Shown here piece after piece: positions 6,645 through 42,543 of a stretch of DNA of 64,000 nucleotides. Position numbers and translations under genes: made by a program. This stretch comes from Plazaster borealis (taxonomy: Eukaryota > Echinodermata > Asteroidea > Forcipulatida > Labidiasteridae). The notes under the pieces are model-generated. The model saw only the letters and a program-made list of their open reading frames with translations, was not told the DNA's origin and searched no databases. The stretch lies in contig CM037472.1 in the NCBI GenBank assembly GCA_021014325.1, positions 26,575,539-26,639,538 on the forward strand, given 5' to 3'. Position 1 is the first letter of the stretch, and each line of letters begins with the position of its first letter.

Positions 6645-7070
6645 GTGGCGTGTCGTGGCCCAGCGGTGAAGCGCACTGGACTCAAGCTCTGGCGATTCTG
6701 ACCAGCAGAGTGTGGGTTCGAGTCCTAGTCTTGACACTTGTATCCTTGAGCAAGGCTCTTGACCATTATTGCTTTGTCTTTCGGATGGGACATAAAGTCA
6801 ATGGTCCCGTGTATTGTGTAATGCAACCCAGTACACTTAGTGTTAAGAGCTTATGGGTTTGCCCTGGTGTTTTCTGGTATGGTTGGCTGATGATTATACC
6901 ACATCACCCTGTAAACCGTAACATGGTGCTTTGTCAACAAATGGGTCTTATATTCAAACATAGCTCTGCAAACCGTGTAGAAAAAATAATGATTGCTTTG
7001 AGACACCCTCTGGTGTGATAAAGTGCTATATACAAACTGCGTATTATTATTGTTATTATTATTATTTTGT
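6645..7070 (+). mobile_element. tRNA-headed SINE family 1 copy
   Basis: The head has a B-box-like GTGTGGGTTCGAGTCCTA at about 6709 and a leading GTCGTGGCCCAGCGGTGAAG. The body follows with CTTGAGCAAGGCTCTTGACC, and the tail is AAAGTGCTATATACAAACTG plus (ATT)n. It lies just upstream of the first visible GALNT7 exon. Confidence 0.8.
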
Positions 7071-7150: not shown

Positions 7151-7452
7151 AAAATTGCCGACCTGGCCCATGATTCCCAAGCAGTGGGTATCGATCGCCC
7201 ACCCGTGCACAAAGAAGCCCACAGCTTTGAGTTACCAGCTCATCAAGGGTCCTCATTGAAGAATATACCTGGGAATTACGAGCCTGACATGCCCCCTCCC
7301 CGCGATGGACCAGGCGAGAATGGGGTACCGGTCAGGACCGGTCCAAACGAGAAAGAAGCGGTCGAGAGAGGTATAAGAGAGTACGGTTTTAATCAATATG
7401 TCAGTGATAAGATATCATTGGACCGGAACATACCAGATCTAAGAAATGCCCA
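7151..7452 (+). CDS. GALNT7: GALNT7 exon: stem region into catalytic domain
   Basis: The acceptor follows a T-rich tract ending TTACAG and the donor is CCCA|GTAAGT, leaving phase 2. The exon reads [10 protein letters not shown] near its start, then [20 protein letters not shown] and, at the end, [18 protein letters not shown](Q). In human GALNT7 the same order occurs (GNFEP, then SLDRSVNDLR). It is an internal exon: it opens in frame without a Met and must join an exon carrying the signal anchor. Confidence 0.9.
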
Positions 7453-10400: not shown

Positions 10401-13400
10401 CAAGTCATTTTCATCTTGGATGTTCAGACCATGAAGTTGAATGGTCTGGAGGCACCTTATCCACAGTTTCTCCCTACTCAGATGAGCTACCTAGTGCCTC
10501 AATGGCCTGTAAAACCATGTCAGAAATGGAGTGATTAGGGAGATTGAAGTGATGTCCTAAAAGTGTATCCATCTTTTGGGTGTTGACTGTGGATCTATGG
10601 CCATAGAAACGCCTCTTGAGTGTAGTTCTTGTTTCACCTATATATTGAACACCACAAACTTTGCAAGATATGAGATAGATGAGATTAGTGGTGGTGGCAG
10701 GTGACATGACCCCTTGTCTTATGGGTGGTACCACTGGTATGGCTGGTGAAGGAATCTGATTCTACAGACAATGCATTGGGAGTGTTGGAGCACCTGAACA
10801 GTTCCTGGGGCATAGGGGGATTAACAGTATCATTAATGGGGGGGGGGACAGCGACTTCTGCCTGGACAATGAGATCCCCGGGACTGGGTGGGCGCCTGTA
10901 GGCAACTGTTGGCTCTTCCTGTACTGCACATTGAAGATGATCTGATGTGTGAAGAATATGATGGTTAGAACTGGTTATTGTTGTGAATGGGATGAAGTGA
11001 GGGGTGGAAAGTGACAACAGAGGGAACTTTCCCCAAGGAACTCTGTTGTTGCTTGGGTTCTTTGGCAAGTACCGACTCCTTAGAATGATCCTTGACTTTC
11101 TGGATCGCTTGATGGACTGCTAGGGAGCTATGACCCTGGGAAAGAAAGTGTTTCTTAAGTTCCTGTGAGTGGTGGATAAAATCAGAATCATTGGAACAGA
11201 TTCGACAGAGTCTGTGGGCCTGACTGTAGGCTATGCTGGTTTTGCAGTGTCGGGGGTGACAGCTGGTGGAGTGGAGGTATTGATGTTTATCTGTGGGTTT
11301 AACAAAGAGATCTCTGATTAAGCCACCATCTGTCTTTAGAACCTTGACATCCAGATCTCTGGTTGAGTATTTGGTCATGAATTTGATGGTCCTGTGGAAG
11401 GATTTTATGTGGTTAATGAACACTGTGAGGCTTGCTTCATCACTGGCCCAGCGCTTGCTTTATCACTTGTTGTTTTTTGTTACAAATGTTCATTTTTAGA
11501 TATTACAAAAAGTAATGCAGTTTGCTGGCACAATTTGCCTGCAAATTGCATCATAGTACCTGGAAATTTTCATTAAATTAAATCACTGTCAGGCTGTGTG
11601 GTCCTGGATGTGGCACGTTTGCCCTCCAACAAGACACTTGACCGTAATTGCTTCCTTCTTCAGATGGGACTTGAAGCTGTAAGGTCTGTGTGGTGTGTGT
11701 TCATTAATGCACGGTGAAGAATCTAGTTGTGGGAGATATTCTGCCTCTGGTATAGAATTGCACCATAGCAACTTGTAAGCCTTACAAGGGGTGATATAAA
11801 TGGGTCACACATGCAATAAAGTATTCATTACCTATTGAAACAAATTTGACTACTTTGAAATGCCAAAGTGCCATACATGTATCAATTTATAAAATAATAC
11901 TCATCATCATGACATAATTGAATTTGTGGTGATATTATCAGGCATAATATTTTTCTTACTTTAATCTAATTTCCGATTTGTTTTTGCCCTCAGAAAAATC
12001 AGCAAAATTTAAAGTCTATAAAAGCATGTACCTTGTGCACATGTAGGTTTAGCCTTTGTACCTTTGCCCTTGAAAATTTTTCTTCTTTTTTCTGAGGACC
12101 AAACATCATGCATGTATTATAAAGTTGTGTATTCTTTACTGTCTTGTGATGACCCAGATGCAAGTATTGGCATTATCCTGAGAAGCTACCAACCACCAGC
12201 GTCATTATAGTATTTCACAACGAGGGCTGGTCTACGCTACTCAGAACTGTACATAGTGTGCTCAATCGATCTCCACCACAACTCCTTCATGAAATCATAC
12301 TAGTAGATGATGCCAGCACAAAAGGTAATTAGTATCCCTGTGTAAAGGGTTGGATTTTCTAGAAACGTATGAAAATAGCCTGTATTCAAGAAAACTGTAT
12401 AACATTATATTGTCTGCATTTTCACGAAGTTGTATGTCCGTCTGAAATAAAAAGAATTTGTATATGATTTTTGTGCACAACTTCTTCAAAGATTCGTTGC
12501 TGTTTTTATTTTAACCAAGTTTCAGGATCTAACTTTACACTAAATAGCATAAACGGGAATCACTAGACTTGCCATTTTGTTTGTTCACGTAGAGGCAAAT
12601 CTTGATTTGCCACTTTTTGCATTGAAATACATTCATGTAGCACTAGCACAGTGCCTTCATGCGTAGTATGACTTTTGCGTGTTTACGCAGTGGCGAAACC
12701 TGTGACCTATATAAGTTCAGTGCTTCCACGAAGTGACAAATCCTAGTGTGTATTGTTTTGTAAACAGCACTCTGCAGGCAGGTCTCATTTCAGGTTTTCA
12801 TGAAGAGGCAAACAAGTTTTGGAATTAATAACTCAATAAAACAGTTGCAAGAAACATTGCCAGTTCTGTATGATTTTTAGAAGTCACTTTTATTGTAAGT
12901 TCAGTTAGCAGTAACTGAAACAGCAGTTTCATAAATAGTTTTATATGGGGTTTACTCTACTCATGGTATTTTTCGGTTTCGGTGGTTTAATTCTCCAAAC
13001 CTTGGCAATCGAATTCAATGACAATTTCACAGGTTAGTTGTATGGTGTGTTTATTGAATTAATATACTCTTGTTACTCTTCCAAACACCAATCATGTACT
13101 TTCCCTTTGATTTGAAGCCATTTGCACACTTTTAGGAGGAAGTGTTTAAATTAAAGACTGCTCTTCCCTGAAAAATGGGGAAGGACCTTGCTTGACAGTA
13201 TGACTACTGGCGGCTGGTCCATATCATTTTTCATTTGCATTTGGCATGCAGACCTCTGTTAAGGGCGAACACTGGTTTTGTGAAGTGTGCATGATCAAAG
13301 TTATCACACAAGGGCGAGTAGAACACGGAAAAATATAGCGCTTCTGCGTCCCATATCCAACAAGGCCGAAGGCCGAGTTGGATATGGGACGCAGACGCGC

Positions 13401-16400
13401 TATATTTTTCTGTATTCCATGAGCGCGCGTGTGATAACGAATTTATCTTCATGCATTGGACGCAAACGCGCCACTTTTGAATTTTTGAACTTCTTATAAA
13501 AAGCGCAACACACAAGACGCAGGGTGTGATATGGGCTGTGCGATATAAGTTTATATCACACTCCTTGTTGCTATAGATCGACCAATCAAAATCGAGGATC
13601 CAAGCCTGCTTGAAGATAATAACAATTGTTGCACACTGTGATGTGGTCCACGGTGTTTTGCACACCGAGGTGGCAAATGGCCATTTGCCCCCGTTGAATG
13701 TACAAAACCCATAAACATCATCACAGCTTGCAACAGTTGTTTTGTTATACCATGGAAATAGATAGCAGGAAGGGGAAACAAACATTATGAATTGAAATAA
13801 ATTGCTTTATTTTTCTGTATTTCTTTTTTTTCTTAATTTATTGTTGAACATTTCATTTTGTTGTTTAGTTGAATTTTGCTTCACTGTTCCCTACAGCATT
13901 TCACACAGGAACATAAATCAATTTACCTAGTAACATACCAGGGTAATACAACCTCATACTTGGGGCTATTTATAATTGTACTAGGCGGTGGAAGCAACCA
14001 ACTGGTGCTGGGCACGATCAAGGTAATGTACCCCGTGGGGTACATCACTCATGTTCCCCTGAGGCATGTACATGCGTCTTTGTAACACATCAAGTGATTG
14101 GTTCTTGAACAATAAAATAGACTTTGAAATTTTTTACTGGAAAAGTTCTTTGCAAAATTAAAAATTCTTGACCCCATACAAGATTCCAGACCTGACGGAT
14201 TAAACCTGTATAATCTGCTTACTGAAACACAGAGTACATGCGCAGGATACAGAAAACTTTGTTGAATATATTATTTTATTTATTTTAGTTTTGTTTGTGG
14301 GAGAGACCTGGACAAGTTTGAATGATTTTGAGCGAGTGTTTTATTTATATTTGGTTGAGACAGAGCATGTGAAAAAGAAGCTAGACGATTATGCCCTGTC
14401 TGCACGGTTCAGTGGTAAACTGAAAATTCTTCGGAATGAGAAGCGGGAAGGGTTGATCCGGACACGCATCAACGGAGCCAAAGCGGCAACGGGGGATGTT
14501 CTGCTATGGTTGGATGCACACTGCGAGGTCGGAATTAACTGGTTAGCCCCACTGCTCACCCCAATAGCACTGAATAGGTAAGATGACATTTCTCGAGTAG
14601 AGTTAAAGGGATTTCCTGGACCTGATGTGTGTGGTAACACTATGGAAATTAGTAGGATTTGAATATAAATAACTATTCAAGTCTTGAAAATAATCACTTT
14701 GAGAGTTGTAGAGTCTCTAAACAATCTCTCACATCATCTTACAGTAGAAATCCTACGTACATGTAGGAGTTTTTCAAAAGATACTGATCAAAGATTGGAA
14801 AGTAAGGTATGAAAAAGTGTGGTTAACTAGAGAAACTTTTCAATTGTGATATCTTGTAATGTAATGATACCCATTTCAGGATTTTGTTCTATTGGTCATA
14901 ATTATACTGTTCAATGTACATGTGTATGTATACTGTATGCTGTGCGTTACATCCATACATATGTATCTTCCTGCACTTTTTTTACCAAAATGGAAGTATT
15001 TCATAGAAAAAAAACTCTTCTTTTTTTCTGAGACTCTGGTCTCAAAGAATCATATATAAATGGCTTTGTTGTTGTCTATTGCATGAGCCTCCAGCATTAA
15101 ACCATGTTATCTACACATACTATGGTACTATGTACATCTTCATGGATATGCATCTGCATAATAAACAGTTATATGCCCTAAGTCCACACAGTTTGTTCGT
15201 CCTTCTGCCATGCATTTTGTGTCAGTGCACATTTCTTATGCAGTCATGTGTAACAGTGGTTATGGACAGTTGCACACAGACACAAAGTGTAATGACTAGT
15301 TAATTATCTCCAACATGAGATATATCCGTGTAATTTTGGAGTCTTCAATAAAGGTATCATGGAGTAGCGATAGCACTCCACACTGATGACGTCACTTCAT
15401 GCTCAAAATACCCGGCTGTCAGACAACCATTCCACTACTTACGCAATCACCGTATCATCAACGCACCAAACTGCAGTAGTTATATATAAATGTAGTCAGT
15501 AAACATGGAACTTGGACATGTACGCACGCTACGTTAGTGAAATTTGACACGTTTGTCTTAGATCCAGGTACTTAGCTTTTTTTTTAAAACATTAGTGCGG
15601 AGTGCTATTACTGTGTCAGTCGGCTCAACAAAAGTGACACCTGTATTAAAAGACAAATTTTCACAGTTCTCACATTAGGGAAAAGATTGCCACCTCTTGA
15701 CAGCTCTCTTGTGAGCAGCCCTGTCCTTGTTTAGAGGGGAAGCCATGCCAGAAGTAAATTTCTGCACCATTTAACATAGGCTGCGGATGCTCCGAGCATA
15801 TAGCTGATTGTGTTTATGTAGCAACGGCTGAGGTGGATGAGGGGGTGGGTCGAGCACGTGGAGGAATCACTGACGAGAATGATCAAGCCTGGCTTTAAAC
15901 TCGGGAGATATTGATTTTAAAGAGGCAGAGTTCGCTCTATTTACCCTTTGGAAATTGACTTCAATCAATAACTGTTTGAGGGAATAAAACTGTATTCTCT
16001 TTCAATATAAATGTGTGCAAAAATCGTGGCCCAATTTCATAGAGCTGCTTAAGAAGAAAATATTGCTTAACAATTGTCTGCTTAGCAGAAATGAGCAAGA
16101 TACCAGTCACAATATTGTACATGTGACATAGCAGTTTGGCTGGTAATCTTTTCTGGAAGCATAATTTTGTTGCGCTTGGCTACTTTTTGTGCTTAAATGC
16201 AATGAACACGTTTGGTGATTGTCAAAGACCAGTATTCTGACTTGGTGTATCCCAACATATGCATAACATAACAAGCCTATGAAAATTTGGGCTCAATTGG
16301 TCATCGAAGTTGCAAGAAGATGTTGAAAGAAAAAACACCCTTGTTGTACAAATTTGTGTGCTTTCAGATAGGAATAAAAGGCTTCTTGCAAGAAGTCTTT

Positions 16401-20800: not shown

Positions 20801-23800
20801 CACAGCCAAATGAAATGCTAGCACTAGCAGTGAGCATACTGTATAAGAAGAAAGACATTTTGCTACTTGTAGTTATGTAAGCAAACATGTCCCAGTGAAG
20901 TCGCGGCCAGAGATTGTACGGGTTAATACTTCTAGAAATATTACAAAAATGAGCTTTGGACATCATGTTCATATCTTGTATGTCCACCATGCAAAGTTTC
21001 AAATCCTCAGGGGTGTGACTTATCAGGATTTTCTCATAATCCCTTGAGCATTAAAATTGTCTTGAAAGGAGTAAAGCAGTCACCAAAGGGAGAAGAAAAT
21101 AGTCCACATTGTGCCCAAACCTGTAGTTTTGTATTTCTAATGATGCACAGAGTCCTTAAACCTGTAGACATTTGGGAGGTACATGAACAGGGTCTATAAT
21201 AATGGGCACCCAGGCCTACAAGCCATTTTTAAGAATGTTCACAATCATCCACTCTCATCCATGAATCCTACTTATACCATAAATCTTACCACGTTCTCTT
21301 TAACCTAATCCGTCAGAAATTCATTAAACTGTTGCGACAGGTTTCAGCTTCATTGTGATCAATGCATAGCCACTTGAGTCACGCTTTGCTAGAGGGTCCG
21401 CATGCAAAACTCAAAGAGTTTCTGGTCAACACAACAACAAGTTTGCTGAGCTGAAATGGGTCACCAGCTGATTCTCATTTGATGTTTATTGTTGTTCCCC
21501 GTTAATTTGTGCAAAGGTATTTTGTTGACTGATAATTTCTGCAAGCAACTATTTTAAATTTGGTCCCAGAAAACAGAAATTAATTCAGGGCGATTCACAC
21601 TTGTAGGCTTTAGAGTGGCAGTTCAGAACCTGGCCCCAATTTGCGAGTTAGATGTTGAATAATATCTCGTACAATGACTTGATTGGTCACAAGTGAATTC
21701 TTAAATTGGATTCTCGGTACTAAAGACAGTGTTGCTACGTCAGATGGTTTCGGAGCAAGCTTTTGTATAGCAACCCCCAGATTGGCAAAGCCTGGTACCA
21801 TTGTGCCATACACATTCATTCAGAATTGGGTATGGGTGTTTGTTGCTCTTACGTAACTACCTAAAAGTTTTCCCCGAACCATGTGACATAGCAACTGTGT
21901 CTTGGGGAGTTCAAATTTAAGCGGTAACTTGTGACTAAGCAAGTCATTGTAGCAGACATTGTTTTAAAAATGGCTTATTTCATAGAGCTGCTTCAGTGGA
22001 AAATTTTGCTTGATGATTTTATGCTAAGCACAAATTAGAAGAAAACCCAGTCACAGACATTACATGTGGAGTGGTGGTAAGCAAAATTGTTTTGTGTGGA
22101 GCTACATTTTGTGCTTCAGTAGCTCAACAAAATTGAGCTCTACACATATCTTTGTTTTATTTGGATTTGGTATTAAGGCTTCAATTTGATTTTTATGGAA
22201 AAGACATCTCACCTTAAAATTTTACAGTTCGAAAATTGACTATGTCAGTTGTCAAGGTGACATTAAAAAATTCAAATACAGGGTTTGTCAAGGTGTGAAA
22301 TCCAGATTTTGACCTCTATAATATGTGACAAAATCATTGCAATCAATTCCATTTTAAAAACGCACTAGTGCATCGCTTGTTTGTACTACGTACATCGTTC
22401 ACTCTTTGACAATATTACACCTCAAAGTCACCTAGATGTGTTTATTCACTTTTGGTTTATTCACCGTTTCAATCTCGTTGTTTCACAGGACAACAGCTGT
22501 GTGTCCCGTCATCGACGTTATCGACAACCAGAATTACAAAGTCTATCCACAAGGCACGGGAGATCAAGATAGGGGAGGCTTTGACTGGAGTCTGTACTGG
22601 AAACACTTTCCCATCCCAGAGTTTGAGCGAAAGAGAAGACGGTATGAGACGGAACCGTACAGGTGAGTTCAACACTTCTTAGCAGTCGTTTTTTCTCAGA
22701 TGGTGTTTGTACTTTTCTTGACAAGACTTCTTTTGGCTTTGCTGTCGAATGCGAAAGTGAGAAAAACAAGTTTGTTGATGTTTTGATGTTATGTGGCCTC
22801 AACACCACTTTATTAAAATTGAATTTAAAGGTAGGGTCATAGATTGGTAAATACTCCAAAAATGAATGACCATAAAAACTTACTTGGTGAGAAGCACTGC
22901 AGCTGTTGATGGTATAACTATTTGGAGAAAGGATTCCCTTCGAAGTAGTATGGTTTGGATAATTTTTCACCCAAAAACATTTGAATATGAGAAGCGATTC
23001 ATGCATAAATCGTTTCTCAGATTTCTGAGGGTTAGTGTCCATTCGCGCCAGTGGTGCGATTGGTACCCAGTAAACATGGATGGAATTGAAAATACCATGA
23101 CAGTTTTTTGCTGTTTTCTCAGCAAGTGGACACTAATCAGCTGAAACTTTCACATGTGGCTGTTATTGTATCTTTCTTTATAATCTTGCCTATAAATCAG
23201 CAATACGGTGATAAAACCAATCAATGACCCTACCTTTAAAGAAGAAAGTCCTGTTTCTTCACAACCAATCTTAATAATGCCAGACGACGACAGGTAAGTC
23301 TATTGTTCTCGGGAATTAGCGCATGCTCAGAACTACGTAAACAATGGAAATTTACCTGAAATGTCTGCTGCCACCTAGTGTTCCAAAGTGTCTCTTGTGT
23401 GTTGTTGTCTCTGGAAAGAAGCAGAGATGTAACTTTGGAATGTTTCAGATGTTTCACTGCTCAGAATGTACTGATCACAGCATCGGAAGATGTTACACTA
23501 CCAGTACTTATCAGAGCAGGCATGATGTTCTTCCTAAAGTCTGATTTCTGATTTGTTGGGCCCTCAGAAAGATTAGCAAAATTGTTATGAAATAGCCTGA
23601 AATTCTATTAAACTTTAAAGCCTATACCGTGTGTACATGTATGTCAGCCCTTGTACTCAATCAAATTTGCTTACTTTTTTTTCCAAGGGCCAGATATCCT
23701 GCCTGTCAGAGCCAACTAAATGCAAAAGATGTTACCGTTTGGTTTTTTTTTTGCACCCCCCCCCCTGATAGATTGCTATCATGCAAAGTTTAAAAACCTT

Positions 23801-26800
23801 TCTTTTTTGGTGTTTTGATATTGTTGTCGCTTGAAATACCAAATAATAATTTGCTGAAATTGTGATTTCCAAATGTTATACTCCCAGATCACCAGCTATG
23901 GCCGGCGGTCTGTTTGCCATGGACAGAGAGTTCTTCTTTGAGCTTGGAGCCTACGATGATGGCCTGGAAATCTGGGGCGGGGAAAACTTTGAACTTTCTT
24001 TCAAGGTATTGTAGACTCGACCATCCTGATGTTATTGGCCCATCAGGTTTCTATTATAGGGCTTGCTCTCATAGGCCGGCTTATTAACTGAGGTTGAAAA
24101 TATCCTTAAGTACTGCTCACGATAGACCTTATGCACATGACATCATCTGAGTAGGGCGCCCTCGTTTAGAGGTCAAAAGAAGGTTGCTCTTTGGCCCATC
24201 TGTTGTGCCGTGCGTACAAAGATGTGGATAAAAAGTCTTATCCCCTTAAGGTGATCCCCTTGCTGCCACTTCCCAGGGTGTATCGTAAACTTGGGTGTGA
24301 TCCCTGGCTACACGGCAGTTTGTGGTTGAATGGCTTCTGACTGGGACCCCCCGAACAAAGATATTGACAAAATAGGGAGACCGCCAACATAGGGCTAGAT
24401 AGCTCAGTTGGTAGAGCGCTGGCACGTTAATCCAAAGGTTGTTGGTTCAAAACCTCACTCTAGTCAACTTTTTTTTGTTCAACCCCAAATCAGATGTGGA
24501 TTTGCACGTTTCATCATCATTTTACCTCTAAGATGGCGGCGTAGTGATGTCATTGCATAAGGTCCATTGCCGACACTCTTGCAAAAACATGACCTACATG
24601 TACATTGTACATTCCATGGTGGATTACTGTTAACTGCCTCCGTCCATTACAGTCCAAAAGCATATCTCAAAACCCAAACCTAGTTGGTGACATACAAGGT
24701 CCCAACTTCATAGAGCTGCTTAATCGGAAAATGTAACTAAGCACAAAAACAATTTTGCTCACCAGAATAACACCTCAGAGAGAAAACAAATATCATTCTG
24801 TTTTTTTGTCTCCAGGGCAACATTGCATGTTATGGTAATAATAGTATGATCATTTTGATGTATGAAAAATATTTCAAAGTGCTTGTATTATTCTTCAACA
24901 GGTTTTGAATGGTTTGTAGAATGCAGGCTTGAAACCTCACAGAGGCAACAGAAGCACTTGTCTCTATGCCCCTGGTCATTGCCTTGGTGCCCCTTGGAAT
25001 GTTAAAGTAGAATGTGTACATTTCTTTCATAGAGGTGCCCCTAAAAACAATGCAAGGCAGTATTCGAACTGGCGGCTACAGCTATGGCTGAGACTGTTGC
25101 TAAGGGTGTTGCTAAGGATGTACTATACTTCAACGCATGATGACGCGGATATCTAGCCGTAGCTGTAGCCGCCAATTCAGACATGGCCTTAAACTGCCTT
25201 GCCCTTAAAGGAACCAAGGATCAGGCCCGTGAGTGAGACCTGTTGGGTTACAAGGTGCTGTGGCGAAATCCAAACCATACTGTACCAGAAACGCCAGTTA
25301 CAAGTCACCTTGATTACATTTCTTACATTCAGTATTTGACTATTTTGCTATTTATACCTGTTTACATGTGTTGTGTTGTCATTTAGCCTTCGAGAAAGAC
25401 TCTGCTAAGGTCGAAACATCAGGCCACTAACTATTTTTGACATTTATACCATAGATACTTTGGGTTGGTAAGCAGTTTGCAACAGCTAATTCTATTTTCT
25501 TAGTCAGTACTTTAGTTAAATTCCTATCCTTCAGATCTGGATGTGTGGTGGATCCCTCATCTGGGTCCCTTGCTCCCGTGTGGGACATATCTATAGAATC
25601 CTCGGCAGGGTACCGTACTCAGCTCCAAACGGGAACATGGCAGTATTAAGTGAAATGGTAAGATAGTGAATTCCTAATGTTCAGGGTGTAATCTAACCGG
25701 TGATGTTTTTTTGTTTTGTTTTTATCTTTGTTCATTCCATGCGGTCAGCTGTGGATGTGTGGGGGATCCCTTTTGTGGATACCGTGTTCCCGTGTTGGTC
25801 ACGTGTATCGGATTCACGGTAAGGTACCCTATTCAGCTCCTGGTGGAAGCATGATGATGCTTAGCGAGAGGGTAAGATGGTCCCCACTCTCAGTGGGTCG
25901 ATTTCTCTCTCCTCTGGTGGATGGATTTCTCTAACCCTTCCTCCTACTTGGTTTAAGTTTCCCGGAGTGTTAGTTTTTGTTTTTTCATCTTTTTCCTGGA
26001 TTTCTTCCTGCTGTGCTAGAAATAATGACGATCTAATTCCGAAGATTGTGCCTGCCGTACTTTTTGTTTATGAGATGATTGTTTGGTTCAGATGTGATGA
26101 TCATTCCAACTCTAATAACAATCCTGGTCAAATCTCGCTGCCCCCCGCAACTCACCAGGTCCCCCCACCCCTGGTTTCCCCCACTCCCATCAGTGTTGGT
26201 TCTCTCATCAACATTGTGGGGGAGCGGGGGAACGTGGAGGGTATTTTTTTTTTTTTTCAGTTGTGCCAATCATTTTTGTTGTGAATGTCTGAATTTTCTT
26301 TTAGTTTATTTTTAAAGCCTGGATTGAATTTTTTGACAAACTCAGGAGTGGGGGGTGTGTGTTTATTGCTGCGTGTTCCAACCATTTAGGACCAAATTGT
26401 AGGTATGGGAAAGTTTGACGGAAGACTTGAAGACACTGGATGGAAGAAATCTCACTGGGTTATTTTTCTTGGTAATTCTGGGCATGGGCAGAATGGATTA
26501 TACCTGGTTAGTCTGCAGCCACGTTGTATCCCCAAAAAGTCTCTCTTTTAAACATTTCTAGTTTGCTCAAAAAATTTTTTTAAAAAATGTCCGAGCAGCT
26601 TAACATCCCCATTTCAAGTGATGCCCTTTGTTGGTGAATTCTCACAAATGTTTATGTTAGATTATTGGACTATTTGCTACTAATTCTGAACACTCCTTAT
26701 AGCATCTGCTGAGGGACATTTGCTTTTTCGTTTTGGTGTGTGTGTTGAATGGCTGTTTATATTGCTAATTCTGTACAGTTGATTCCTGGTTAAACTGCGG

Positions 26801-29800
26801 AGCTTAACTATCTCTGTTTGAACCCTAACTGCTACACATAGTCACTTTCCCTCCGTTTGATTTTTTTAACTCAACTTGCTTGAAATCATTTAAAATTGAT
26901 TTGGCTGTTATCAAATCTTACATTTGATAACGTCACCCACGCTTCTCACTATTCAAGTCCATTATTTATGATTAATTACTGTTGTGTGAATTTAAATTGT
27001 TATGGTGTCCTCATTTTTTTCTTCCAAGATGTCAAAGCATGTACCCTATTTGTGAATGATTTTCCTTTTTTATTAATGAACTCATACAGCCACAAATGTA
27101 GAAGGTTTCCAACAACCTCATTCCCAGGGGTGATCGGGTCCAGTGCGCTTGACCGCTCGCCCACAACAGCTACCTTATGCATAGCACACATTATTCTGAT
27201 ATTACTTACTGTCCTTTTCAATGTGTAGTGTAGTTAACACATGAGATCTGGAGTTCCTTTTTCATTGTGTAGTTAACACATGAGATCTGGAGTTCCTTTT
27301 TCATTGTGTAGTTAACAATTGAGATCTGGAGTTCCTTTTTCATTGTGTAGTTAACACATATGATCTGGAGTTCCTTTTTCATTGTGTAGTTAACACATAT
27401 GATCTGGAGTTCCTTTTTCATTGTGTAGTTAACACATATGATCTGGAGTTCCTTTTTCATTGTGTAGTTAACACATATGATCTGGAGTTCCTTTTTCATT
27501 GTGTAGTTAACACATATGATGTGGAGTTCCTTTTTCATTGTGTAGTTAACACATGAGATCTGGAGTTCCTTTTTCATTGTGTAGTTAACACATGAGATCT
27601 GGAGTTCCTTTTTCATTGTGTAGTTAACACATGAGATCTGGAGTTCCTTTTTCATTGTGTAGTTAACACATGAGATCTGAAGTTCCTTTTTCATTGTGTA
27701 GTTAACACATGAGATCTGAAGTTCCTTTTTCATTGTGTAGTTAACACATGAGATCTGGAGTTCCTTTTTCATTGTGTAGTTAACACATGAGATCTGAAGT
27801 TCCTTTTTCATTGTTTAGTTAACAAATGAGATCAGGAGTTCAGAGATGCCAACATACACGATTTGGGCGTAGAAAATACGATTTTGAGCCGTGAATACGC
27901 CGCTACGATAATCTTCAATTAAATACGATAAACAAGCCGCCCAGTGTAAATGTAGTTACAATGTATCATGATAAAAACTAAAACTAAAAGTATAAAATGA
28001 AAAAACTATAAAAAATGTTGACTGCTGCCGCGTGGTTAAAAGTGATGAGCGGCGCCGAATTCACACGCGGTTTGGTGCTTATTTAGGAGGTACCAATCCC
28101 ATAAACTATCGCATTCAGGATTTGCCTCCCTGACACACGCGTAGCACAGAGCACACACTGAGCCTCAAGTCTCCTTGTACAGCATACATTCTACAGTCGC
28201 TTTTGTAGAGACTGGTTCCGCAGTTTTTCTAACGCTTTACGACTGTGGGATGCGGCGTTAAACAGACACTAGTGTGATAACTTTTATCTAAAATGCAATT
28301 CGCAAGTTCAGCGCGCGCCGTCGTGGACGGTTTGTTTGAAACATCGCGATCGCTGCAGTGATCAACTAAAATACCGGTGACAACAAGAAAATATTTCATC
28401 GATTGCAATCGAGGCCAAGATCTGATGAAAACTGTCGATAAAAAAGTTGTTAAGAATGCAGTGGGTGGAAATGGAATTGGTTGGAAAGGCCAATTGACGA
28501 AATTGCTCTTGCTGAAGTCGTTTGAAGACTTGACTGGCCTGCTGTGGTCAGGTGGTGTGACGTATTTTTTTACTATTTTGCTGTACAAACGTGAGCATTA
28601 TTTATTTTAATAAACAATGGGACAGAAAAACAAAGCATTTTGTTGAGTTTAATTGGAAAGGGTTCTCTTCATGCACAAGCTAGTGCAAATTGCGGTCCGA
28701 TAAGAAAAATAAAATTAAAAAAAATACTTTTTTTTTTTTTTTTAAATCAAGCCTGAGAATACAATTCATAATTGTTTGACCTCTAGAGCAGGCCGCTTTG
28801 CAATAAGTGATTTTCGCTGAAAGTGTTAGTTTATATCATAAATGTCATAATTTTCCTCTTTTTACGGCTCGGTGAGTTTTATGCTTGACTTGAAACTTAA
28901 GTGCTCGGCGGTGCTACTCTTTTTGGGAATTCAATGTTGGCATCTCTGGGAGTTCCTTTTTCATTGTGTAGTTAACACATGAGATCTGGAGTTCCTTTTT
29001 CATTGTGTAGTTAACACATGAAATGTCAAGGTCTTGGTCTCTCTCCTTATTCAGTCATGGGATTTGCAGATCTTGCCTTTGGACTAGTTCTCTTTCTGTG
29101 GCTTGCTCTTTAGTTTTGCGACAGAACAGAACTGAATTTCAATGCTAGCTGTGCAAAAGTGAAGACTCCTTAGTCATGCAGGCATAGATAAAACTCATAA
29201 AAAGCATGTAAGCACAAAAACTTGCTAAGCACAGAAAACTCTTGCACAAGAAAAATAAGTTACCAGCCAAAATACCATAGTTACCATTGCTGTGACTGGT
29301 ACCCCACTCATTTCTTGCTTGGCAAATAAATTTGCTGAGCAGAATTTTCTGCTAAACAGCTTTATGAAATTGGGCCCAGTAAGTAACATTTTGCTCTGGT
29401 CTAGGTCTCATGCACCGTCCTCCGAAGTCTCAAATCCCATCCTTCTCTTGGGCACCCCAGTCTCAACTACGTCAACCAATTGAAACTTCTCCCTTTTTTA
29501 TTGTTTCAGAATCTGAAGCGTGTTGTAGAAGTCTGGTTTGACGAGTACAAAGAATATTTCTACCGCAGTAAGCCAGAGGCCATGCTGGTCTCTGCAGGAA
29601 ATCTAGACAAGCAGCTGGAGTTCCGTCGTCAGAAGAAGTGTCGATCGTTCTCTTGGTATATGAGTGAGATTGCGCCAGATATTGTGGATAAGTTTCCTCT
29701 ACCTGCAGCTAATGTACAGTGGGGCGAGGTGAGTGCAGATACTCAGTGAAGCCTTTTTAAATTGAGAAAATTTGGGGTCGAACAAAGACAAGTTAACTAG

Positions 29801-31391
29801 AACGGGACTTGAGCCTGCGACCTCCAGATTAACGTACTCTACCAAAGAGCTATCTAGCCCTAATGTTGGCAGTCTCCTTATTTTGTCAATATCTTTGTTC
29901 GGGGTGCTAGTCATGAGCTATTCAACCTATAACTGCCGTGTAGCCAGAGATCACACCCAAGTTTATGGGTCACAGGTTGAATGGCTTCTGACTGGCACCC
30001 CCGAACAATTGATATTGACCGCCAACATTAGGGCTAGATATCTCAGTTGGTGGAGTGCCGGCACGTTAATCAGGAGGTCGCAGGTTCAAAGCGTTCCAGT
30101 CAATTTTTCTTTGTTCAACCCAAAATTATTTAAAATTTACCCAGTCAGTTTCCCTTGTGATTTATTATTTGATATCTAAAAGTAACAACATTGATTTGCA
30201 GTCAGTCAAGGAACAGCAACCCTGGAGATAATTCTATGTATTAATGCTCCCTAGGCCTTTTTGCCTACAGGCAACCTCAATCCATCAATGTCCAATGTCA
30301 CTCAACACTCAACTTTTTACGTATTCTGGATAAATAAATCAACTTTATGGAATTGTGTTTTAGGTGAGAGTAGCCGGAGATCATGTCTGTGTGGATTCAA
30401 TGGGTCAGAAGGATGGTGGTAAGGTCGGTATGTCGTACTGCCATGGTGCTGGCGGGAATCAGCTCTTTAGAGTAACACAAGACGGACAGTTTCGCATTCA
30501 TGATCAATGTGCCTATAAATCCTCATCTGACGTCAGGTTACGACGGTGTGACACTACGAGGTATCAGTGGGTTTATAATTTGGTGAGTTTGATTCCTAGA
30601 AAATCATAATTCATAATCAATTCTGATTCATGCTTCCATGTTGATCCATAGGCTTCTTCAGTGTTGTTGACTCGAGTCGGTGACTTGGACTCGACTCAGA
30701 CTCGAGTCGTCAATTTCATTGACTTGTAAATTGACTTGACTTGGGGAAAAATGACTTGTGACTTGACTTGACTTGAGGGAGAATGACTTGAGACTTGACT
30801 TGACTTGACTTGAGGGAAAATGACTTGGTTACAACACTGGGGGGGGGGCTAGCATATTATATGTCCCCCCTTTTCATTGCCCATTTAAAATATGCTAAAT
30901 ATAATAACAAATACACAGCATTTCGGTGAAAGAGAATATTTGTTACAACTGTTGTTAACAAAACTTTAACTGATAACGCTGGAATTGTGAAATGGTTTTG
31001 TTTTGATTATTACCCTATGGGCTTGCCAGTGCATACAAAGATGTACCACACACAGAATGCTATTTGTGGCTATTTCCGGTGTGTCAGGAGATTCTTTCCC
31101 CCTAGATTGGCTAGGAAATTGTGTCTCCCAAGACGGACTCTCCAAGGAACTAGATTCTTTCCCACCATGCAAAGTTTCAAGTCCTAGCTTTTTTTTAAAC
31201 AAAGATCACTTGTGATCCTACTAACTTTTTGTTTGTTTTGTTTTTTGTATTTCTTTACCACATGTATTGTATTCTGTATTTCTTCTTAGCTTTAGGCTTA
31301 CGTTTCCATTTTGATTATTGTACATGTATATGTTATTGTTTGTATTAGCGCCATGAGCACTTTTGTGGATTTGTGCGCTTTATAAGTTTTC

Positions 31392-31423
<32 letters not shown>

Positions 31424-31636
31424 TGGTTGCTTGTATTGTATGTACAACATTATATATAAAGTTCTTGCATTTTTTCTGTCCTTCCTTTGCAGAACACACA
31501 AACATTATACTTAGAGGATCTACATGAATGTCTCGATCACAGACCAGCCACCAAAGAGCTTTTTATGACAGCGTGTGTACCAGACAAAAAAACACAACGG
31601 TGGGAAATATCGTCAAAGGGACTAAAACATCATTGA
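7151..31636 (+). CDS. GALNT7: GALNT7-type polypeptide N-acetylgalactosaminyltransferase (5'-incomplete, multi-exon)
   Basis: Joined coding exons: 7151-7452, 12158-12324, 14364-14577, 22489-22662, 23888-24005, one of 25535-25657 or 25749-25871, 29510-29728, 30364-30582, 31493-31636. All have GT-AG junctions and compatible phases, and together encode 559 residues. Family role: Golgi type II enzyme moving GalNAc from UDP-GalNAc to Ser/Thr, with GALNT7 preferring already glycosylated peptides. Seen in order: a stem ending in [13 protein letters not shown]; the GT-A domain with [20 protein letters not shown], the DAH metal motif (visible residues 207-209), [25 protein letters not shown] and CSRVGH; then a ricin-type lectin domain with CVD, GNQLF, CLD and QRW. 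The CKYWHY and [12 protein letters not shown] blocks resemble GALNT7 more than other GALNTs. Human GALNT7 is 657 residues, so roughly 100 N-terminal residues (cytoplasmic tail, membrane anchor) are missing; I found no upstream exon in 1-7150. Confidence 0.93.
8313..8752 (+). mobile_element. tRNA-headed SINE family 1 copy with internal duplication
   Basis: The head is truncated at AAGAGCACCGGACTC; the B box GTGGGTTCGAATCCTGG is intact. About 53 bp beginning CCCCGGTATTCCTGGTTTGA occurs twice in tandem (near 8495-8600). The tail is GAGCGCTGTATAAGAAG. Confidence 0.75.
9134..9405 (+). mobile_element. SINE family 3 copy a
   Basis: A tRNA-like start GGTTGGCTCAGTGGTTCCTT, a degenerate B box GGTTTGCATTCCGG, then GGGTTTTCCTCCCACATCTA and TCCCTTGGTTTCATTACCAG. 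The same series occurs at 33258-33510. Confidence 0.65.
10045..11455 (-). mobile_element. Penelope-like retroelement fragment (RT C-terminus and GIY-YIG nuclease)
   Basis: The minus strand reads, in several broken frames, [60 protein letters not shown] (11455-10965), then [20 protein letters not shown] and [11 protein letters not shown] (10734-10600). These are the thumb region and GIY-YIG endonuclease of Penelope-like elements. The 3' part contains CTTTGAGAAAGACTCTGTTA and GTTGAAATGTCAGG, a tail seen again alone at 25380-25430. It is truncated before the catalytic RT core and frameshifted. Confidence 0.78.
11590..11830 (+). mobile_element. Degraded SINE family 1 fragment
   Basis: Shares CAACAAGACACTTGACC, TTGCTTCCTTCTTCAGATGG and CATAGCAACTTGTAAGCC with family 1 bodies. 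The tRNA head is lost. Confidence 0.45.
12158..12324 (+). CDS. GALNT7: GALNT7 exon: start of GT-A fold ([15 protein letters not shown])
   Basis: The acceptor is GACCCAG|ATG; its first base completes the Gln codon begun in the previous exon. The exon encodes [20 protein letters not shown] followed by [17 protein letters not shown] and ends [11 protein letters not shown] with a phase-1 GTAATT donor. FHNE and VDDAS are nucleotide-sugar binding blocks common to all GALNTs; CKYWHY is typical of GALNT7. Confidence 0.95.
12325..14363 (+). other. GALNT7 intron
   Basis: Holds the foldback element at 13300-13438; otherwise no exon or repeat was recognised. The sequence around 13480-13560 contains further GACGC and TGTGATAT words resembling the foldback arms. 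Confidence 0.6.
13300..13438. mobile_element. Foldback element, 139 bp
   Basis: A near-perfect hairpin. GTTATCACAC at the left pairs with GTGTGATAAC at the right, and GCGTCCCATATCCAAC pairs with GTTGGATATGGGACGC around an AAGGCCGAAGGCCGA centre. Long open frames across it on both strands are a by-product of the palindrome. Confidence 0.75.
14364..14577 (+). CDS. GALNT7: GALNT7 exon with DxH metal motif
   Basis: The acceptor is TTGAGACAG|AGC (phase 1) and the donor AATAG|GTAAGA (phase 2). It encodes [10 protein letters not shown], then [20 protein letters not shown] and [19 protein letters not shown] at 14513-14521 supplies two Mn2+ ligands in this family. The open frame continues upstream to 14291, but that part is intron: it would break phase with the previous exon and matches nothing in the family. 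Confidence 0.95.
16027..16590. mobile_element. Inverted-repeat family B copy 1, split by MITE A2
   Basis: The left end GGCCCAATTTCATAGAGCTG and the right end AGCTCTATGAAATTGGGCCC form an inverted repeat. Bases 16197-16563 are a complete family A element inserted at TTAA. Confidence 0.8.
16197..16563 (+). mobile_element. MITE family A copy 2 (nested in B1)
   Basis: 367 bp, interior as in copy 1, flanked by TTAA on both sides; the left end has drifted to ATGCAATGAACACG. Uninterrupted B copies read GCTTAAGCAGCTCT at this point, so the empty site is known. Confidence 0.82.
17568..17866. repeat. Low-complexity G/T tract and (ATTT)n microsatellite
   Basis: A G-rich run (17588-17635) could form G-quadruplexes. 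(ATTT)n occupies about 17812-17866. No gene content. Confidence 0.7.
18958..20305. mobile_element. 1.35-kb DNA transposon-like element with many GTCCGTCCCTCAC motifs
   Basis: The ends are GAGCGTGATCCAA and TTGGATCACGCTC (13-bp terminal inverted repeats), flanked by TAAT on both sides. Inside, the 13-base word GTCCGTCCCTCAC or its complement occurs about ten times in both orientations (for example 19137, 19320, 19490, 19704, 19718, 19731, 19889, 20275). No transposase frame is seen, so it looks non-autonomous. Confidence 0.75.
21971..22135. mobile_element. Partial family B inverted-repeat element
   Basis: Begins TTTCATAGAGCTGCTTCAGT and carries GCTAAGCACAAATTAG; the right end is decayed. Confidence 0.45.
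22489..22662 (+). CDS. GALNT7: GALNT7 exon (CPVIDVID to TEPYR)
   Basis: The acceptor is GTTTCACAG|GAC and the donor TACAG|GTGAGT; both junctions are phase 2. It encodes [20 protein letters not shown], then [15 protein letters not shown] and the basic segment [13 protein letters not shown], matching the corresponding human GALNT7 block (VPLIDVI, DWSM, KTEPYR). The intron before it is about 7.9 kb and loaded with mobile elements. Confidence 0.95.
22829..23235. mobile_element. MITE family D copy 1
   Basis: 407 bp with ends AGGTAGGGTCATAGATTGGT and ACCAATCAATGACCCTACCT, flanked by TTAA on both sides. A second copy is at 47325-47774. It contains a long chance open frame on each strand. Confidence 0.82.
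23888..24005 (+). CDS. GALNT7: GALNT7 exon ([20 protein letters not shown])
   Basis: The acceptor is CTCCCAG|ATC and the donor TTCAAG|GTATTG, ending in phase 0. It encodes [20 protein letters not shown] and [18 protein letters not shown], the most conserved block of the GALNT family. It is followed by the duplicated exon pair. Confidence 0.95.
24287..24490 (+). mobile_element. tRNA-related SINE family 2 copy a
   Basis: The internal tRNA-like part GGGCTAGATAGCTCAGTTGG and GTAGAGCGCTGGCACGTTAA (24392-24465) is preceded by GGTTGAATGGCTTCTGACTG. The poor B box (GGTTCAAAACC) and lack of cloverleaf ends argue against a functional tRNA gene. Confidence 0.7.
24706..24790. mobile_element. Family B fragment
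   Basis: CCCAACTTCATAGAGCTGCT and CTAAGCACAAAAAC only. Confidence 0.35.
25330..25460 (+). mobile_element. Penelope-like 3' tail fragment
   Basis: Contains CTTCGAGAAAGACTCTGCTA, GGTCGAAACATCAGGCC and CATTTATACC, matching the minus-strand tail of the element at 10045-11455. Confidence 0.5.
25535..25657 (+). CDS. GALNT7: GALNT7 alternative exon a (His-ligand/flexible-loop cassette)
   Basis: 123 nt, 41 codons, phase 0 at both ends; acceptor CCTTCAG|ATC, donor GAAATG|GTAAGA. It begins [20 protein letters not shown], continues [14 protein letters not shown] and ends SEM. In GALNTs the His of VGHxYR/FR is the third Mn2+ ligand, and the residues after it form the flexible loop that closes over UDP-GalNAc. 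A homologous exon of the same length follows after 91 bp (25749-25871). Either joins correctly to NLKRVVEVW at 29510. Confidence 0.93.
25749..25871 (+). CDS. GALNT7: GALNT7 alternative exon b (tandem homologue of exon a)
   Basis: 123 nt, 41 codons, phase 0; acceptor GCGGTCAG|CTG, donor GAGAGG|GTAAGA. It begins [20 protein letters not shown], continues [14 protein letters not shown] and ends SER. By eye it is identical to exon a at 30 of 41 residues, with many synonymous differences, an open frame and intact splice sites. That pattern suggests both copies are under selection. Using both would keep frame but put two metal-ligand segments in series, so mutually exclusive use is the likely arrangement (inference). 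Confidence 0.9.
27227..27840. repeat. 39-bp minisatellite, about 15 units
   Basis: The unit starts GTGTAGTTAACACATGAGAT and continues CTGGAGTTCCTTTTTCATT. Variants (ATATGATCTG, GAAGTTCC) are clustered, as expected of array turnover. 39 is divisible by three, which explains the 197-codon open frame on the minus strand. Two more units follow at 28949-29022 after a transposon insertion. Confidence 0.9.
27841..28948. mobile_element. hAT-like element, 1.1 kb, inserted in the minisatellite
   Basis: The ends are CAGAGATGCCAACAT and ATGTTGGCATCTCTG, a perfect 15-bp inverted repeat with the CA-G-G-GCCAA pattern common in hAT elements. The flanks repeat GGAGTT (6 bp; up to 8 bp with one mismatch if the ends are set one base in). 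The interior has no full transposase; the largest open frames are about 120 codons and I recognise nothing in them. Confidence 0.78.
28949..29022. repeat. Minisatellite continuation (about 2 units)
   Basis: Same 39-bp unit as 27227-27840; the insertion at 27841-28948 separates the two parts. Confidence 0.88.
29196..29377. mobile_element. Degenerate family B element
   Basis: Carries AAGCACAAAAACTTGCTAAG and ends CTTTATGAAATTGGGCCC; the left terminus is decayed. Confidence 0.5.
29510..29728 (+). CDS. GALNT7: GALNT7 exon: end of catalytic domain
   Basis: The acceptor is TTGTTTCAG|AAT, the donor GGCGAG|GTGAGT, and the exon is 73 codons. It encodes [20 protein letters not shown] and later [15 protein letters not shown] and NVQWGE. 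[14 protein letters not shown] is the standard continuation after the flexible-loop segment, and WGE leads to the lectin domain. Confidence 0.95.
29769..29960 (-). mobile_element. SINE family 2 copy b (minus)
   Basis: The minus strand reads GGGCTAGATAGCTCTTTGGT and GGAGGTCGCAGGCTCAAGTC with the body AACAAAGATATTGACAAAAT. It abuts copy c head to head. Confidence 0.68.
29961..30172 (+). mobile_element. SINE family 2 copy c
   Basis: The body GGTTGAATGGCTTCTGACTG, head-like GGGCTAGATATCTCAGTTGG, and tail CCCAGTCAGTTTCCCTTGTG that also ends other copies. Confidence 0.68.
30364..30582 (+). CDS. GALNT7: GALNT7 exon: ricin-type lectin domain, first part
   Basis: The acceptor is TTTTAG|GTG and the donor AATTTG|GTGAGT; 73 codons, phase 0. 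It reads [20 protein letters not shown], then [18 protein letters not shown] and [23 protein letters not shown] and the Q-x-W-like RYQW are beta-trefoil lectin repeat signatures and parallel human GALNT7 (CIDSMG, GGNQLF). Confidence 0.93.
30660..30835. repeat. ACTTG-rich minisatellite
   Basis: Repeated GACTTGACTTG and GACTCGAGTC words over about 175 bp with a roughly 35-bp higher unit (GAGGGAGAATGACTTGAGAC), followed by a G run at 30839. Confidence 0.75.
31493..31636 (+). CDS. GALNT7: GALNT7 last coding exon: lectin gamma repeat and stop
   Basis: The acceptor is CTTTGCAG|AAC. The 47 codons plus TGA read [20 protein letters not shown], then [13 protein letters not shown] and end LKHH. CLDH and QRW are the CLD and QxW motifs of the third lectin repeat; human GALNT7 ends similarly with CLDRS and QKWEM. 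Confidence 0.94.
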   Translation, partial: NTQTLYLEDLHECLDHRPATKELFMTACVPDKKTQRWEISSKGLKHH

Positions 31637-32081: not shown

Positions 32082-32288
32082 GGTTACTTGGGTGTGATAT
32101 CTGGCTATATGGCAGTTAACAGGTTGAATGGCTTCTGAATGGCACCTCGAACAAAGATATTGACAAAATAGGGAGACTGCCAACATTAGGGCTAGATGGC
32201 TCAAATGGTAGAGCTTGGCTCGTTAATCCGGAGGTCGCAGGTTCAAATCCCGCTCAGTCATATTTTCTTTGTTCAACTCAAAATTAAA
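32082..32288 (+). mobile_element. SINE family 2 copy d
   Basis: GGGCTAGATGGCTCAAATGG with B box GGTCGCAGGTTCAAATCCCG. It looks the best preserved of the family, but the gap in the anticodon arm and unpaired ends argue against a tRNA gene. Confidence 0.7.
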
Positions 32289-41745: not shown

Positions 41746-42008
41746 TTGCTCTACTGTTTGTATACTCTCTCGACTCTAGATCTAATGAGGGCGCTACCCT
41801 AAAAATTTGGGCTCACCAAAATAACTTCACGAAATATTATTTATTTCGTTAATTGTAATAGCAAATAAACAACATTTTATTTCCAATAATAAATTTTAAT
41901 TACAACTTTAATATAATGTTTATGTAAAAATTTAAGAAACTATTAAACTTTATCAGTCCTTTACTATAACTTGAAAAATCTTTGTGGCTGTGGTTCTCAG
42001 AGTTCAAG
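41745..42008. promoter_or_regulatory. Likely bidirectional promoter between PDCD2 and the minus-strand gene
   Basis: The two genes are head to head with about 270 bp between the inferred first exon and the PDCD2 start codon. The sequence AAGATGGCGGC at the PDCD2 start resembles a YY1 site, common at housekeeping-gene starts. No TATA box is clearly placed. The evidence is gene arrangement, not mapped transcription. Confidence 0.45.
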
Positions 42009-42543
42009 ATGGCGGCGCCCATGGAAAACATCAAAAAGAAAGTTACTTTGGGGTTCGTGAATGAAAATGCCGAAAGTTGGAAGCTTTCCAGGAAATATTT
42101 CCCCAGCAAAGTAGGTGGAAAGCCTGCCTGGCTATCGATGAAAGATATCCCAAATTCTGAAAGGCTCAAGTGTCCAAATTGTGGTAAAGTGTGCATTTTT
42201 CTGATACAAGTTTACTGCCCCGTTGTGGAATTGGAAACGTGCTTTCATCGGACATTGTTTATTTTCGTCTGTAAAGATCCGTCTTGCCATTCCCAAGACA
42301 CTGCAGCTTATGTGGTTTTGCGAAGCCAGCTCCTAAGAGCAAATGAGTTTTACGATTATGAACCACCTGACGAAGATAATCCAGTTGAAGACTGTGGGAG
42401 CGAAAGCCTTGTTGGTCTGTGTGCAGTGTGCGGTTGTCATGGAGGAAAGAGATGCTCAAAATGTCGTGTAAAAATCTACTGTTGTCGAGAGCATCAGAAA
42501 GTCGATTGGAAATCGGGACATAAAGTGAGCTGTGGAGTGGAAG
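42009..42543 (+). CDS. PDCD2: PDCD2 exon 1: N-terminal domain and MYND finger
   Basis: From ATGGCGGCG to the donor GAAG|GTATAT (phase 1). It contains the FPSKVGGKPAW block, LKCPNCGK, and the whole MYND finger with all its Cys/His ligands. The open frame runs on to 42722, but that extension is intron. Confidence 0.96.

Follow-up and report, generated by a model that had tools for sequence, protein, structure and literature searches.

Tandem duplicated, probably mutually exclusive loop exons in a GALNT7-type GalNAc-transferase gene of Plazaster borealis

The window analyzed here, a continuous stretch of 64,000 nucleotides from the genome of Plazaster borealis, contains a GalNAc-transferase gene on the + strand. 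Based on homology and splice signals, a model of ten exons was obtained for this gene, spanning positions 7151 to 31636 and including two alternative exons, which are referred to as A and B. The features of the model are listed below in the order of their positions within the window, with the letters that flank an exon given where they supported its boundaries.

7151..7452, + strand: exon E1, encoding the stem and the start of the catalytic region (...LRNA), flanked by ACAG and GTAAGT; open and in frame with E2
12158..12324, + strand: exon E2, encoding the start of the GT2 catalytic domain (PF00535 match of the spliced protein), flanked by CCAG and GTAATT
14364..14577, + strand: exon E3, encoding the DAH motif (LDAHCE), supported by a PF00535 genome match at window positions 14369-14584, by its splice sites, and by its frame
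22489..22662, + strand: exon E4, flanked by ACAG and GTGAGT and supported by its frame
23888..24005, + strand: exon E5, the common upstream exon, flanked by CCAG and GTATTG
25535..25657, + strand: exon A (alternative), 123 nt, 41 codons, phase 0, with the Mn ligand His18 and the flexible loop at residues 21-34
25658..25748, + strand: spacer intron between exons A and B, 91 nt
25749..25871, + strand: exon B (alternative), 123 nt, 41 codons, phase 0
29510..29728, + strand: exon E7, the common downstream exon, flanked by TCAG and GTGAGT
30364..30582, + strand: exon E8, encoding the lectin domain (PF00652 match of the spliced protein)
31493..31636, + strand: exon E9, encoding the end of the lectin domain and the stop codon

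With either exon A or exon B, the spliced protein comprises 559 residues and is open to the stop codon, and the Pfam domains Glycos_transf_2, Glyco_transf_7C, and Ricin_B_lectin were found in both isoforms (113.9 bits for PF00535 and 71.7 bits for PF00652). The predicted product would thereby combine the GT2 catalytic domain and the ricin-type lectin domain expected of a GALNT7. No first exon encoding the membrane anchor was found for this gene model. Upstream of E1, ARAGORN called a tRNA-Leu(CAA) at 6648-6742 (+), which is a candidate for a gene or a repeat.

Among solved structures, isoform B as the query matched GALNT7 (6iwq) with 601.8 bits, ahead of GALNT10 (482.8) and GALNT1 (444.5), and a 153-residue piece with exon A scored 197.3 bits against GALNT7 compared to 168.2 against GALNT10. 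Furthermore, a tree was calculated from 14 partial sequences, which included 9 of the 13 sister GalNAc-transferase loci (L028, L029, L034, and L036 were left out). In this tree, the window isoforms grouped together with human GALNT7 and the loci L024, L025, and L026 with a support of 94/91, which falls just below the starred level of 95/80; human GALNT10 paired with L033 (support 90/88). The rows for A and B have their flanking exons in common, which renders their mutual pairing uninformative. On these comparisons, GALNT7 is the nearest family member to the gene, ahead of GALNT10 and the others, and the assignment to the GALNT7 type is well supported. The GALNT7 identity proposed in an earlier note on this DNA is borne out by both the structure matches and the tree grouping, in the sense of a GALNT7-like gene. 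Strict one-to-one orthology with vertebrate GALNT7 is less well supported, because this genome holds at least four GALNT7-like genes, including the one in the window, and because the branching order is open at the fork joining the window gene, L024, and human GALNT7.

Additional features were observed in the window. The intron after exon B harbors a minisatellite (27228-27841) with 15.7 copies of a 39-bp unit and 97% matches, and about two more copies were seen by eye near 28950-29022, with other sequence between. Repeated stretches resembling tRNA (GGGCTAGATAGCTCAGTTGGTAGAGC...) were recognized by eye in introns and flanks at about 24391-24470, 29810-29872 (reverse), 30026-30110, and 32183-32265; ARAGORN called no tRNA gene at any of these four stretches, which are perhaps copies of a tRNA-derived SINE. 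Downstream of the GALNT7-like gene, an open frame at 41970-42719 (+) matches a MYND finger (PF01753, 30.4 bits) and appears PDCD2-like by eye.

Exons A and B are flanked by tccttcag and gtaagat and by gcggtcag and gtaagat, respectively, and encode peptides that are identical at 30 of 41 residues. On the DNA level, 84 of the 123 bases are identical and 39 differ, with identities at 32, 35, and 17 of the 41 first, second, and third codon positions. The motifs CSRVGH and PYSAP are retained in both, and LSFK (exon end 24005) is connected in frame to NLKRVVEVW (exon start 29510) through either exon on its own. Being homologous neighbors that agree in phase and have AG/GT sites of their own, A and B represent a tandem duplicated exon pair. 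The earlier note had described two equal-length, phase-0 exons of 123 nt, 91 bp apart, with good splice sites and 30/41 identical residues; its coordinates and counts were reproduced exactly, as were the retained motifs and the in-frame joins.

Chance similarity of A and B was ruled out, since the pair scored 187, compared to 18 for the next best ungapped 41-residue match, and no third copy of the exon was found in the 64-kb window. An assembly-wide search with the exon (560.6 Mb, 717 contigs), which lists the best candidates, gave 15 matches, corresponding to A, B, and 13 other loci, and the A-B pair occurred once among them. Over 60 nt, the intron flanks of A and B are identical at 27 and 29 positions and, beyond the common GTAAGAT donor, gave no sign of a recent duplication. 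Inverted repeats around the pair provided no lead, with 3 of the 4 arm pairs linking the two exons and the remaining one linking the upstream intron with exon A. A direct repeat of 16 nt (13/16) between the acceptor tract of exon A and the spacer (25669-25684) is probably due to chance.

The functional meaning of the segment can be approached via GalNAc-T2, for which the cited passages of PMC4432651 give Asp224, His226, and His359 as Mn ligands, Arg362-Ser373 as the flexible loop, and Phe361, His365, and Ser373 among the contacts with the acceptor peptide. In our alignment, from which we assigned letters to residue numbers ourselves, His359 corresponds to exon residue 18, the loop to residues 21-34, Phe361 to residue 20, His365 to residue 26, and Ser373 to residue 34. 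By this alignment, the duplicated segment holds the Mn-ligand histidine together with the whole catalytic flexible loop, which supports the earlier reading of the segment as the third Mn ligand plus flexible loop.

The two exons differ at 11 positions in all. Before the loop, these are residues 1, 9, 11, and 19, all of them conservative; within the loop, residues 23 (L/H), 25 (R/K), 32 (N/G), and 34 (N/S); and behind the loop, residues 36 (A/M), 37 (V/M), and 41 (M/R). Including R/K at residue 25, conservative differences account for 5 of the 11. Exon B has PGGS, as in GalNAc-T2, and exon A has PNGN. The relatives (n = 8) side with A at some positions and with B at others; since it depends on the position which of the two agrees with more relatives, neither copy is simply ancestral.

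Between A and B, 22.2 of 29.4 synonymous sites differ (95% interval about 0.56-0.89), which corresponds to a saturated pS of 0.75, compared to a pN of 0.18. Of the 16 four-fold sites common to both exons, 9 differ, and the lower bound on divergence from these sites is only 0.38. When 39 nucleotide changes were placed at random, a mean of 17.8 residues remained identical, and 30 identities were reached in none of 20,000 trials. Likewise, when one copy drifted neutrally and the other was left unchanged, 30 identities were kept in 0 of 2000 simulations at 0.5 changes per site and in 1.5% of simulations at 0.3. All of these simulations assume a 2:1 transition bias, and the neutral-branch simulation starts from exon A only. 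These results show that both copies have been under protein-level constraint for most of their history, and both look functional and interchangeable. One copy may have fallen out of use recently, because at 0.2 changes per site 21.5% of the neutral-drift simulations still kept at least 30 identities.

These data also bear on two readings in which the pair would not provide alternative exons. That it represents an artefact of the assembly or of haplotypes, which the earlier note had raised as a potential refutation, is hardly credible and was rejected: nothing was found in favor of it, either exon occurs only once among the assembly matches listed, and synonymous divergence is saturated. Since 39 of the 123 bases differ, A and B are neither allelic nor an assembly duplicate. 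The use of one exon alone, with the other being an unused, decaying duplicate, would be in line with the 3' splice site of exon B, which is weaker than that of exon A in a simple score (-0.1 vs 3.0). However, E2, E5, and E8 of the same gene have similarly low scores (-0.9, 0.7, and 0.5), and both copies have open frames, intact AG/GT sites, and near-equal donors (8.8 and 8.7), with the Mn-ligand histidine and PYSAP kept in each. The acceptor of exon B does not stand out, as 12.2% of the 3492 AGs in the window score at least as high; for the acceptor of exon A, this applies to 4.4% of the AGs, and for both donors to under 0.7% of the GTs. The matrices for splice sites, branch points, and polypyrimidine tracts are human-based and serve to rank sites only. 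As a long neutral drift is excluded by the simulations at 0.5 changes per site, we consider an unused duplicate unlikely.

Whether a spliced model includes A, B, both exons, or neither, it is open and ends at the common stop codon. Because joint inclusion and joint skipping stay in frame, exclusivity is not enforced by the reading frame. A retained spacer would run into stops at its third and fourth codons, so that exclusivity needs a mechanism at the level of splicing. Joint inclusion as the normal state, which would result in a 600-residue protein with the segment repeated, is permitted by the frame, and an intron of 91 nt is not impossibly short. Such a protein would, however, carry a second Mn-ligand strand and loop inserted in the conserved core of the catalytic domain, whereas the single-segment models align gaplessly to GALNT7 across this exon and the solved GalNAc-transferase chains aligned have one such segment. 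This makes regular joint inclusion very improbable, and we return to exclusive use of A or B. A mechanism for it, compatible with a mutually exclusive pair and contained within that explanation, would be a steric clash, in which a branch point near the 5' splice site of exon A blocks splicing from A to B. The spacer contains a candidate for such a branch point:

25693..25697, + strand: CTAAC, candidate branch point (adenine 25696), the sole YTRAY in the AG-free zone before exon B

The candidate adenine lies 39 nt from the donor of exon A and 53 nt from exon B, and the motif precedes a U-rich tract that contains no AG. For a steric clash, a limit of about 50 nt between branch point and donor has been proposed, and the predicted distance falls below it. 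In addition, the spacer is the shortest of the nine located introns (91 vs 635-7911 nt). The distance of 39 nt is also inside the range of human OGDH exons 4a/4b, with branch points 25-41 nt from the donor, as given in the cited passages of PMC7969005. However, the length of the AG-free zone (64 nt) is unremarkable, being equaled in 9 of 55 other candidate acceptors, at least three of which (L029, L031, and L033) are not true boundaries. Similarly, when the zone was shuffled, a motif of this kind stood early in 2267 of 10,000 cases, so that its occurrence is not above chance. Furthermore, the human-based branch-point matrix also yields rival candidates: with 5.02 for adenine 25696, it scores position 25677 at 5.24, a motif set aside solely for the AG downstream of it, and position 25724, which would sit 67 nt from the donor, at 3.95. 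The RNA structure of the spacer is ordinary (z -0.47, with 59 of 200 shuffles equally stable). Steric exclusion is, therefore, a reasonable guess that falls somewhat short of an even chance, and the suggestion in the earlier note that the 91-bp spacing may hinder joint inclusion is plausible though weak, with the candidate branch point at 39 nt in its favor but an ordinary context of this candidate in the controls.

To place the duplication within the gene family, the sister loci, i.e., those among the best matches of the assembly search, were examined as 10 kb each. All 13 of the other GalNAc-transferase loci among the matches listed have a single copy of the loop segment with a flanking-exon match on either side, and the pair as a family-wide feature in this genome was rejected on this count. 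In 10 of the 13 loci, AG directly precedes the WxCGG start; in L029 and L031, the boundary is apparently shifted upstream by a few residues, and L033 lacks an intron at this position. Judging from these sequences, the 5' boundary of the loop exon is widespread in the family. The loop exon comprises 41 codons in L024, the same as A and B, and 40 codons in L025 and L026. A and B have 30 residues in common with each other and at most 24 with any of the 8 other loop segments compared, which stem from 5 of the 13 sister loci and from 3 human enzymes. Because each is thus nearer to the other than to any of these, the duplication would most simply have arisen within this gene.

Regarding the other loci, L024, L025, and L026 are GALNT7-like, share a contig with the window gene, and differ in their loop sequences; L024 and L026 are neighbors about 12 kb apart (C18:12.69-12.70 Mb), and L025 is found at C18:16.24 Mb. 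The GALNT7 type appears to be expanded in this genome. On another contig of the assembly, downstream exons of GalNAc-transferases were matched with similar scores at C13:4455544 and C13:4505685, about 50 kb apart, and PF00535 matches are likewise paired (C13 positions 4450853 and 4501400). This is perhaps a tandem gene duplicate; no loop-exon match at C13:4505685 was among the matches listed.

Taken together, the explanation that we strongly favor is a pair of tandem duplicated, probably mutually exclusive loop exons in a GALNT7-type gene, giving two enzyme forms. An internal tandem duplication would have copied the phase-0 exon that encodes the third-Mn-ligand strand and the catalytic flexible loop, and splicing would most likely take either exon A or exon B, an either/or use that we infer from the sequence. 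The resulting two enzymes would have their fold, metal site, and lectin domain in common and would be distinguished by their lids over the donor/acceptor site, which differ at loop residues 23, 25, 32, and 34 as well as at residues 36, 37, and 41 just behind. By analogy with the fly isoforms PGANT5A and PGANT5B, the isoforms may differ catalytically, so that exchanging the loop would adjust the preference for acceptors or the rate.

The specificity of GalNAc-transferases is usually viewed as a matter of gene choice, and GALNT7 is a glycopeptide-preferring enzyme. If the favored explanation is true, a splicing switch in the loop, which closes over UDP-GalNAc and touches the acceptor, would let one gene retarget by tissue or stage. 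It seems somewhat more likely than not, with less confidence than for the exon pair itself, that the loop exon, with the same phase-0 boundary, was duplicated independently at least twice (in the fly GALNT1 line and in the GALNT7-type gene described here) and marks a site where splicing has repeatedly allowed animals to derive two O-glycosyltransferases from one, with the choice in GALNT7 tuning the filling of mucins. A and B also represent natural loop variants, 11 positions apart on an otherwise identical enzyme, and as such are material for testing the role of the loop.

Two forms of one GalNAc-transferase, comparable to isoforms A and B, are also seen in the GalNAc-T9 chains 6e4q and 6e4r, which we take to be the Drosophila pgant9A/9B splice forms; in the alignments, these chains differ in the lectin part, whereas A and B differ in the catalytic loop. 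With respect to the spacer, OGDH exons 4a/4b are comparable, as their spacer intron has branch points near the donor of the upstream exon, with a large polypyrimidine tract after them (PMC7969005). These branch points were mapped experimentally, whereas that of the window, a candidate with a U-rich tract behind it, is predicted and not above chance. For human GALNT7 itself, exon 6 is described as less included in endometriosis in the cited part of PMC13039441, an event that consists in reduced inclusion of one exon, in contrast to the tandem pair of the window.

No tandem exon pair in GALNT7 was found in the literature covered, i.e., titles, the starts of abstracts, and some passages. PMC9741552, whose supplementary tables hold 236 human events, records tandem duplicated exon substitutions for GALNT13, Pgant5, and gly-5, cases that are like the window pair in being tandem exon substitutions in the GalNAc-transferase family. 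In the parts of that source cited here, the vertebrate, arthropod, and nematode cases are taken as convergent, and its main text contains the string 'GALNT' once (as GALNT13), with GALNT7 unnamed there. The earlier note did not recall such an arrangement for GALNT7. This novelty stands with regard to GALNT7 within the literature covered, but the loop swap as such is preceded by pgant5 (PMC12776162, preprint) and the tandem-exon events by GALNT13, Pgant5, and gly-5 (PMC9741552); what is new here is apparently the loop-exon swap pair in a GALNT7-type enzyme.

Drosophila pgant5, the GALNT1 orthologue, parallels the favored explanation for the window gene: the catalytic flexible loop of its GalNAc-transferase is exchanged through alternative splicing, and the swap of this same loop changed substrate preference according to the cited passages of a preprint (PMC12776162). 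As given there, PGANT5A and PGANT5B differ within residues 398-457, which comprise the flexible loop and helices I-II; with one charged mucin peptide, kcat/KM was about 2.7-fold higher for PGANT5A, and a change of loop residue 419 reduced this value about 6-fold (PMC12776162, preprint). By our own arithmetic from the correspondence of PGANT5 S420 with GalNAc-T1 A349, PGANT5 residue 398 corresponds to residue 1 of exons A and B, with loop residues 419-421 lying in the stretch of exon residues 22-26. The two systems differ in that pgant5 belongs to the GALNT1 line and its swapped residues 398-457 include helices I and II, whereas the window gene is GALNT7-type and its 41 residues end before these helices. 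Since the GALNT1-like gene L035 of this genome (named by eye) has a single copy of the loop exon, the fly and window events are most simply separate, and the pair described here is probably a second independent origin of the arrangement known from fly pgant5.
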